Part shown: one piece after another, positions 41,902-52,281 of the stretch
Layout: each line of letters opens with the position of its first letter
Position numbering within the stretch: the first letter of the stretch is position 1
Source: Moorella glycerini
Lineage (GTDB): Bacteria > Bacillota > DSM-521 > Neomoorellales > Neomoorellaceae
Length of the DNA: 64,000 nt
Direction of reading: 5' to 3'
Assembly (NCBI RefSeq): GCF_009735625.1
Contig: NZ_CP046244.1
Coordinates: 2,356,001 to 2,420,000 of the forward strand
The notes under the pieces: generated by a model
The model's input: the letters and a program-made list of their open reading frames with translations, nothing else
What the model was told of the DNA's origin: nothing
Database searches by the model: none
Made by a program: the position numbers and the translations under genes

Positions 41902-41912
41902 TACAGTAACGT

Positions 41913-42024
41913 CCTTCGGGGTTAGGTGCAATTCCTTACCGGCGGTAAAAGCCCGCGAGCCGTAAAGGCAGACCCGGTGCAATTCCGGGGCCGACAGTGA
42001 CAGTCTGGAAGGGAGAAGGCGTTT
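41913..42024 (+). promoter_or_regulatory. FMN riboswitch (RFN element)
   Basis: Recognised by the conserved blocks CTTCGGGG at the 5' side, GGTGCAATTCC, ACCGGCGGTAAAAGCCCGC, GACCCGGTGCAATTCCGGGG, GACAGT and the closing GGGAGAAGGC, which pairs back to the start. It precedes a terminator and ribDEBAH, so FMN binding should cause early termination. Confidence 0.93.
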
Positions 42025-50011: not shown

Positions 50012-50042
50012 GGATGGCGGGTTTTAACCGCCATCCTTTTTT
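50012..50042. terminator. Terminator between SASP gene and gpr
   Basis: GGATGGCGG (50012-50020) pairs with CCGCCATCC (50028-50036), followed by T run on the plus strand; overlaps the gpr stop. Confidence 0.85.
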
Positions 50043-51018
50043 AATGTAACGGTATGGCAGCCTTAGCCTGCAGGAGAGTGGCATGCAGGGTCCTGTTCAG
50101 GGCATTACCAATGACCCAGGCCAGGTTATGCACCAGGTCGTCAACCTCTTTGGGAGTTACCGTCAGGTTACCGCCAAAAGGTGCCAGGACATTGCGGGCA
50201 AGGTTTTGGGCCACGGCCTGGTTGAGCTGCAGGTTGACATTAGGAAAAGCCTGCTGGATTTGGCTAAGGGCTTCATAGATAATCACCCCGGCATGAACTA
50301 CAGTAGGAATACCGATGGCAATAACGGGAATACCCATGGTTTGTTGATTGATGCCGGTACGTTGATTTCCCACCCCTGAGCCGGGGCTAATGCCGGTATC
50401 GGTAATTTGAATGCTGCTGCCTATGCGTTGCAGATCGCCGGCAGCCAGGGCATCAACGGCAATCATTACTCTGGGCCGGGTTTTTTCTACCACACCCTTA
50501 AGGATTTCCGCTGTTTCAATTCCGGTAGTACCCAGGACACCGGGGGCCAGGGCACTGACGGGTCTTGTTCCCGGGGGCATATTTTGCGGTACGTATTTTA
50601 ATAGATGCCGGGTAACCGTAAACTGGTTGATTACTTTTGGGCCCAGGGAGTCCGGCGTGGCTTCCCAGTTACCCAGGCCCACCACCAGCACCGGGTCGGC
50701 AGGACCAACATGCCATTTTTGTAACAAAAGTTTGAGTTTCTGGGCCAGGAGACCCGCTATTTCTTCGTGAACGGGCGGGTTTTCAGAGCGGAGGGCCGGT
50801 GCATCGATGGTTATGTAAGTACCCTGGGGCTTGCCCATAGCTTGCTCGCCGATGGCATTCATGATGGTAATAGTTGTAACCGTAGCGTTGGGGTACTGTT
50901 CTTTATCTTCCCTTACCCCGGGCACTTCCTGCTGGGTAGCCCCGCGTAATAAAGCATGGGCTTCCACCGCCAGGTCCAGGATAACTCCCGCCAGCTGGTA
51001 AAATTCGGCGCGCTGCAA
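50041..51018 (-). CDS. gpr: Spore germination protease GPR
   Basis: Aspartic-type protease that cuts SASPs. The frame opens with ATG at 51063, but no ribosome site precedes it; TTG at 51018 has GGAGGG seven bases upstream and yields a propeptide of usual length before the conserved ILDLAVE stretch. 325 aa. Family motifs include VVGLGNWEATPDSLGP, APGVLGTTGIET and IAVDALAA. Convergent with its substrate gene. A TTGACG near 51085 (minus) might be a -35 element. Confidence 0.9.
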   Translation of the reverse strand: MQRAEFYQLAGVILDLAVEAHALLRGATQQEVPGVREDKEQYPNATVTTITIMNAIGEQAMGKPQGTYITIDAPALRSENPPVHEEIAGLLAQKLKLLLQKWHVGPADPVLVVGLGNWEATPDSLGPKVINQFTVTRHLLKYVPQNMPPGTRPVSALAPGVLGTTGIETAEILKGVVEKTRPRVMIAVDALAAGDLQRIGSSIQITDTGISPGSGVGNQRTGINQQTMGIPVIAIGIPTVVHAGVIIYEALSQIQQAFPNVNLQLNQAVAQNLARNVLAPFGGNLTVTPKEVDDLVHNLAWVIGNALNRTLHATLLQAKAAIPLH

Positions 51019-51139
51019 GGTGGTTCCCTCCAAACTTTTAAGGCCTGCCTTCAGGTTATCCATAATGAAAAAAAATATACGTCAAAAAGGAAAAGTTTCC
51101 TGGCGTGTTGAATAATTGCCCTCAGGGAAGGTGAGACTG

Positions 51140-51307
51140 ATGGAAGTAAAATGTACCCTCTGCGGTCGTAAAGAAGAAATTACCAAGGTCCATAAGGATT
51201 ATCGCAAACTGGCGCGCGATAAAAATGCCGTCTACACCTGCGAAACCTGCCGCGCCCGGCTGCGTTACCAGGCCCTGCAGGCCCAAAAAGCAGAGAAACC
51301 ATTATAA
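51140..51307 (+). CDS. YlaI-like (DUF2197) zinc-ribbon protein
   Basis: 55 aa with two CxxC pairs, CTLCGRKEEI and CETCRARLR, separated by a basic helix. ATG at 51140 has GAAGGTGAG upstream. Matches the YlaI/DUF2197 pattern; function unknown, probably nucleic-acid or ribosome associated. Confidence 0.8.
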   Translation: MEVKCTLCGRKEEITKVHKDYRKLARDKNAVYTCETCRARLRYQALQAQKAEKPL

Positions 51308-51315
51308 ATACCTTA

Positions 51316-51344
51316 TTGACAGCGTAAAATAATTATAGTATAAT
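51316..51344 (+). promoter_or_regulatory. Consensus sigma-A promoter for the selenoprotein-trxA unit
   Basis: Perfect TTGACA (51316-51321) and perfect TATAAT (51339-51344) with the ideal 17-base spacer, 25 bases before the start at 51369. One of the best promoters in the window. Confidence 0.88.
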
Positions 51345-51368
51345 CGCAGCGAGAGAGGAGGATGAAAG

Positions 51369-51650
51369 ATGGAAATCCGTATCAGCCCTAAAGCGGAACA
51401 ATATATCAAAGAGAAATCCGATACCATTACCATTAAATTAGAGATGTGCGGCGGTTGAGCTGGACTATCAATTCGTCCTGCCGTGTATGCAGGCGCGCCA
51501 GCTGACGTGAAAAACTTTATTGTTCAGCAGCTAAATGGCTTAAAGGTTTACCTGCAAAAGGGGATTAAAGCTTCACGCGGCCTGGATGTAGACCTGGTGG
51601 GCTTTGGACCCTTTAAACAGCTGGTTGTCGATGGAGTGCAAAATTATTAA
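51369..51650 (+). CDS. HesB-like / CC-Se motif selenoprotein with in-frame UGA
   Basis: 93 aa if the TGA at 51456-51458 (codon 30) is read as selenocysteine; normal calling stops there. The frame then continues without another stop to TAA at 51648. Before the UGA: MEIRISPKAEQYIKEK start and MCGG; the UGA thus makes a CGGU motif followed by AG, matching the IscA/HesB active-site loop with Sec for Cys. A short hairpin with a G/U loop starts 19 bases after the UGA. Consensus promoter upstream; GAGGAGGAT ribosome site; trxA 19 bp downstream. Alternative: a pseudogene with one stop, less likely given full downstream coding character. Confidence 0.8.
51477..51493 (+). promoter_or_regulatory. Candidate bacterial SECIS hairpin
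   Basis: CCTGC (51477-51481) pairs with GCAGG (51489-51493) around a CGTGTAT loop that offers the G and U expected by SelB. The apical loop is about 24 bases after the UGA, near the usual spacing. A second small pairing GGAC/GTCC (51462/51475) lies beneath it. Confidence 0.55.
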
Positions 51651-51669: not shown

Positions 51670-51996
51670 ATGAGCAAGCCCGTTAATGTTGACAGCAGCG
51701 CCTTTGAAGCTGAAGTATTGTCAGCACCGGTGCCAGTAGTAGTTGATTTTTGGGCCGTCTGGTGCGGTCCCTGCCGGATGATGGCCCCGGTGCTGGATCA
51801 GCTGGCCGAAGACTACGATGGTAACGTTAAATTTGCCAAGGTAAATGTTGACGAAAACCAGGAACTGGCCGCCCGCTATGGTATTATGAGTATACCTACC
51901 CTGGTTATCTTTAAAGACGGCCAGGAAGTGGGACGGGTCATTGGCTATATGCCCAAGGAAAAGTTAAAGGAACAGCTGGAAGCTGCCATACATTAA
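51670..51996 (+). CDS. trxA: Thioredoxin
   Basis: 108 aa cytosolic disulfide reductase. Active site WCGPC (Cys32, Cys35), cis-Pro in SIPTLVIF, and the buried Asp in VVDFWA. ATG at 51670 after TAGGAGGCACC; the frame is longer but earlier sequence belongs to the selenoprotein. Probably co-transcribed with the selenoprotein from the promoter at 51316, suggesting thioredoxin reduces it or shares its role. Confidence 0.96.
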   Translation: MSKPVNVDSSAFEAEVLSAPVPVVVDFWAVWCGPCRMMAPVLDQLAEDYDGNVKFAKVNVDENQELAARYGIMSIPTLVIFKDGQEVGRVIGYMPKEKLKEQLEAAIH

Positions 51997-52046: not shown

Positions 52047-52235
52047 ATGGCCCGCCATGCTTTTATTGATGCCAGTCTTTGCGACGGCCGGGCCGATTGC
52101 CAGGCTATGAACGCCTGCCCTACTAAATCTTTCATGCGTGAAGAGGAGGGCGAACCCTGGTTTATTGGCCCTACCTGCCTGGGCTGCGGCCGCTGCCTGC
52201 TGGCCTGTGACCGGCAAGCCATCAGCCTGATCTAG
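52047..52235 (+). CDS. Small ferredoxin-like Fe-S protein
   Basis: 62 aa. Second cluster motif is clear: CLGCGRCLLACDRQAI (CxxCxxCxxxC). The first half has C-x5-C-x5-CP spacing (CDGRADCQAMNACPTKS), so a first 4Fe-4S site is plausible but irregular. ATG at 52047 after GGGGGAGGTT. Follows trxA, followed by a terminator. Likely an electron carrier or subunit. Confidence 0.85.
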   Translation: MARHAFIDASLCDGRADCQAMNACPTKSFMREEEGEPWFIGPTCLGCGRCLLACDRQAISLI

Positions 52236-52240
52236 TAACT

Positions 52241-52281
52241 AAGGGTCACCGGTTAATTACCGGTGGCCCTTAATGTTTTAT
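52241..52281 (+). terminator. Terminator of the selenoprotein-trxA-ferredoxin unit
   Basis: AAGGGTCACCGG (52241-52252) pairs with CCGGTGGCCCTT (52260-52271) with two mismatched or wobble positions, loop of about 7, then TTTTATT. Confidence 0.7.

Follow-up and report, generated by a model that had tools for sequence, protein, structure and literature searches.

Within the window, i.e., the whole 64,000-nucleotide stretch of DNA analysed here, a short reading frame with an in-frame TGA lies directly upstream of a thioredoxin gene (trxA), raising the question of whether this codon is read as selenocysteine (Sec) and, if so, what the resulting protein might do. The window belongs to a 3.56 Mb genome; among named organisms, its closest relatives are species of Moorella. 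A first-pass annotation, made from the sequence, had proposed a hidden selenoprotein gene with a TGA at codon 30 and coding that continues for 63 codons to a TAA. Our coordinates agree: the frame (51369-51650, + strand) starts with an ATG at 51369, comprises 29 codons (ATG included) before the TGA at 51456-51458, and 63 more after it, followed by a TAA at 51648-51650. The features of the locus are as follows:

51140-51307, + strand: small zinc-ribbon-like protein, DUF2197 (28.3 bits), just upstream of the selenoprotein gene
51316..51344, + strand: sigma-70-type promoter, TTGACA-N17-TATAAT (12/12 consensus match)
51356..51361, + strand: ribosome-binding site AGGAGG, 7 nt ahead of the ATG
51369..51650, + strand: putative selenoprotein gene (CC/Se motif family NF041239), 93 aa, IscA-like predicted fold
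51456..51458, + strand: UGA codon 30, read as Sec by comparison; motif C-G-G-U-A-G; TGA in 28/29 aligned homologues, TGC in 1
51477..51493, + strand: bacterial SECIS-like hairpin CCTGC-CGTGTAT-GCAGG; covariation and synonymous constraint, loop CGTG invariant
51670..51996, + strand: trxA, thioredoxin (WCGPC; TIGR01068, 135.8 bits), probable operon partner
52047..52235, + strand: small ferredoxin-like protein (weak Fer4-type matches), third gene of the apparent operon
52240..52272, + strand: terminator-like hairpin after the three-gene unit (consensus match only)

The consensus promoter and good ribosome site that had been described ahead of the gene were both found. Of 16 Moorellaceae loci examined, 14 have the promoter motif upstream of the selenoprotein gene, again at 12/12, and one more has it at 11/12; purine-rich ribosome sites occupy the same place in the relatives' selenoprotein genes. 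The selenoprotein itself is found in the named relatives M. mulderi (99%) and M. stamsii (98%).

UGA 30 is a sense codon by comparison

We aligned 29 distinct homologues and found TGA at residue 30 in 28 of them; the other (L034) carries TGC, i.e., the Cys counterpart that the first-pass annotation had suggested looking for. For the part after the UGA, 11 genus-level orthologues gave a pN/pS of 0.12 in frame, vs 2.0 and 4.3 when the two alternative frames were read, and dN/dS in this frame was 0.06 after the UGA, near the 0.08 before it. The downstream part, on whose conservation the earlier reading hinged, is by these measures under purifying selection, in this frame only, and UGA 30 is, on such comparative grounds, a sense codon.

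The genome also carries the machinery for Sec insertion: selA (626.6 bits), selB (388.6 bits), selD (405 bits) and the tRNA-Sec gene selC (73.6 bits) were all found, and selD has one in-frame TGA of its own. Of the 101 genomes surveyed, 38 possess the family in its TGA form, and 37 of these also have selA, all but one assembly that is 58% complete; among the other 63 genomes, 40 have selA (Fisher p = 3.6e-5, a value that is only indicative because the genomes are related).

A conserved hairpin follows the UGA

The hairpin with a G/U loop that had been noticed about 24 bases past the UGA is where it was said to be: it starts 18 nt downstream of the UGA, 24 nt separate the UGA from the first G of the loop, and the loop bases CGTG are invariant in 28/28 sequences. 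Folding of this candidate bSECIS had been proposed as a check, and here the outcome depended on the approach. A single-sequence fold of the SECIS region was uninformative alone (z = -0.51), and in its place the hairpin was judged by comparative tests, which supported it. Synonymous sites were conserved at codons 37, 38, 39 and 41 (CCT GCC GTG, GCA; p<0.0005 each); only hairpin-forming codons reached this level, and the rest of the gene fell short of it. In the Cys homologue, both the hairpin codons and the hairpin are lost. Stem pairing scored above slid and shuffled controls, with compensatory changes from G-C to A-U in four sequences and from U-A to C-G in one; as three of the six stem pairs never vary, covariation alone is modest, and the synonymous-site test weighs more. 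The outermost stem pair (columns 21-39) is unformed in 15/28 sequences, this gene's included. Judged by these sequence comparisons, the hairpin is under selection as RNA, and we infer that it would act as a SelB-binding bSECIS.

Could the UGA be a true stop after all, such that a 29-residue peptide gene is followed by a separate gene or a decaying pseudogene? The sole general ground for this explanation is the standard code, in which UGA means termination; an internal GTG start at 51483 can be added to it. However, purifying selection is uniform on both sides of the UGA, the codon is fixed across many families with a UGA-to-Cys exchange seen, the hairpin is constrained, and the TGA form co-occurs with selA. 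Selection on both flanks together with the hairpin constraint rule out a true stop or pseudogene for practical purposes, leaving it a negligible probability. Taken together, the conserved UGA, in-frame selection, hairpin constraint and selenium machinery support the Sec reading that had been proposed, and the product of 51369-51650 is almost certainly a selenoprotein of family NF041239.

The gene is one more orthologue in a known family

The earlier expectation of a member rather than a new family was borne out by the match to NF041239, 'CC/Se motif family (seleno)protein' (Moor_selen_rel), which at 98.9 bits cleared the 40-bit cut-off and was full-length (protein residues 1-90, profile positions 1-91 of 91). 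At the E-value used, this model matches all 29 aligned homologues, and each of them has Sec or Cys at its motif position (here Sec, at codon 30); some distant NF041239 paralogues have neither. A plain ORF caller does miss the gene, as had been claimed for standard gene calling, but a curated NCBI model exists for the protein. The family is listed as a 'hypothetical protein predicted in Moorella thermoacetica' (PMC9312934, PMC13188914), in table entries that give no function and no domain besides the family model; the main text of the 2016 comparative-genomics paper cited for this prediction does not name the family. Since the protein matches NF041239 and two reviews list the family for Moorella thermoacetica, both the family and its occurrence in this genus were already known, and the gene adds one orthologue. 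It shares with the founding example both the genus and the Sec at the family position, and differs from it in nothing of substance, being the orthologue in a sister species.

Of note, two genus-level relatives encode a second, diverged paralogue (L096, G005:C1:1412446-1412709; L097, G009:C1:1838319-1838594), in which about IGTAGGPA stands in place of CGGUAG, i.e., without Sec or Cys at the motif. By their sequences these are family members that appear to lack the catalytic residue, and one of the two lies upstream of an FmdE-looking gene.

The protein is predicted to have an IscA-like fold

The motif around the TGA had been likened to the IscA/HesB loop. An AlphaFold2 model built on the alignment (pLDDT 92) found its best solved-structure matches by Foldseek in IscA/SufA (E 1.5e-4), and VIA, for the predicted model against the IscA/SufA type, gave Z 9.2 over 87 residues with an rmsd of 2.8. 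Profile comparison by hhalign pointed the same way, with 97% (E 9e-11) for Sec-containing HesB relatives and 89% (E 2e-6) for IscA-type proteins, and in both alignments Sec30 was placed on the invariant loop Cys. Sequence identity to IscA is ~15%; PF01521 had no match in the selenoprotein, and a profile search of PDB sequences returned chance matches only. The protein is thus modelled with an IscA/SufA/HesB fold that would hold Sec30 at the position of the A-type carriers' invariant loop Cys. In a limited search of the literature, we did not find such a fold stated for this family.

The likeness to known families has its limits. The A-type Fe-S carriers IscA/SufA/ErpA (PF01521) share the predicted fold and the loop position, but they have three Cys ligands, whereas the protein studied here has Sec for the loop Cys and lacks the C-terminal CGC (as seen in the alignment of homologues, the protein being without a C-terminal Cys). 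The HesB-like selenoproteins (TIGR01911 / NF038090) are similar in predicted fold, in length and in having a loop Sec with x-G after it, yet their conserved core differs from that of the CC/Se family, which has RPAVxAG, and their motif is given in review as UxGP, whereas the protein here has U-A-G-L; a few distant CC/Se members carry U-G-G-P. Membership in TIGR01911 (cut-off 66.35 bits) was rejected: the protein was unmatched up to E = 1, and no match was found elsewhere in the genome. What stands of the IscA/HesB resemblance is therefore the predicted fold and the loop position, but not the HesB selenoprotein family.

A conserved apparent operon with thioredoxin

The promoter and selenoprotein gene, trxA, the ferredoxin-like gene and the terminator-like hairpin follow one another in this order, suggesting a three-gene unit. 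The trxA linkage that had been pointed out is conserved: trxA lies directly downstream of the selenoprotein gene in 15 of 16 Moorellaceae loci, the contig ending at this point in the remaining one (L022), and the ferredoxin-like gene is kept beside trxA in most Moorellaceae. Moreover, thioredoxin-type genes occur within about 1.5 kb of the family gene in three other families, as a thioredoxin (L026, L029), as a thioredoxin-like gene with a CcdA-like gene after it (L025, L090; CcdA by eye), or as a thioredoxin domain fused to an apparent flavin reductase (L038, L093; reductase by eye).

These observations suggest how the protein may work. UGA 30 would be decoded as Sec via the downstream bSECIS and SelB, the complete Sec machinery being encoded in this genome, and an IscA-like scaffold would present Sec30 at the loop-ligand position, without the C-terminal CGC ligands. 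From this combination we infer that the protein may act either as a selenol-based redox protein, its oxidised Sec being reduced by the product of the adjoining trxA, or as a one-ligand metal or cluster handler. To the former, a partnership that rests on gene order, we give about an even chance; handling of a metal or cluster with Sec as ligand would be possible, though rather unlikely. All 29 homologues carry either Sec or Cys at residue 30, and Cys27, which would provide a CxxU redox pair, is found in just 19/29; a selenylsulfide mechanism would thus not be universal, and Sec30, not the CxxU pair, would be the essential residue.

Of the other identities that the protein could conceivably have, an A-type Fe-S carrier of the IscA/HesB type, with Sec as a cluster or iron ligand and replacing an IscA absent from the genus, fits the IscA-like predicted fold and the Sec at the loop Cys position. 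It also fits the finding that 11 genus-level genomes yielded no PF01521 protein, such that the CC/Se protein may be the genus' only IscA-fold protein. However, the C-terminal CGC ligands are absent in the alignment, the linkage is to thioredoxin, and we noticed no suf/isc gene in those neighbourhoods that were read; many anaerobes do without such a carrier (PF01521 was not found in 53/61 genomes). We consider this identity rather improbable. Far less probable still is a bacilliredoxin (BrxA/BrxB)-like thiol-disulfide protein, whose active-site stretch CGGUAG...RPAV may resemble: local TIGR04191/PF06491 matches do occur in 8/29 members (best E 0.0018), but they lie far under the curated cut-offs and cover residues 3-45 only, and the predicted fold is IscA-like, with no thioredoxin fold. 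We rejected bacilliredoxin identity on this weak local match and the different predicted fold.

Returning to the selenol redox protein, the CC/Se family could conceivably represent a second, separate Sec-bearing branch of the IscA/HesB superfamily that lost the cluster-ligating tail and is now a thioredoxin-linked selenol redox enzyme, a scenario that we hold tentatively, at somewhat less than an even chance; if true, an Fe-S scaffold fold was converted to a redox catalyst. Overall, the observation of the first-pass annotation was confirmed, and its interpretation was largely supported. The useful additions are the predicted IscA-like fold, the conserved apparent operon with thioredoxin and the well-supported SECIS, which together make the function of this uncharacterised family directly testable.

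Other features of the neighbourhood

The DUF2197 gene stands at the same place in most Moorellaceae and is here divergent from a germination protease gene (50041-51063, - strand). In three distant genomes of two families (L089, L091, L101), a regulator on the opposite strand comes after the selenoprotein gene, and in it we recognized, by eye, three repeated XRE-like helix-turn-helix segments. Elsewhere in the window, an FMN riboswitch was found at 41907-42024 (+ strand, 109.7 bits).
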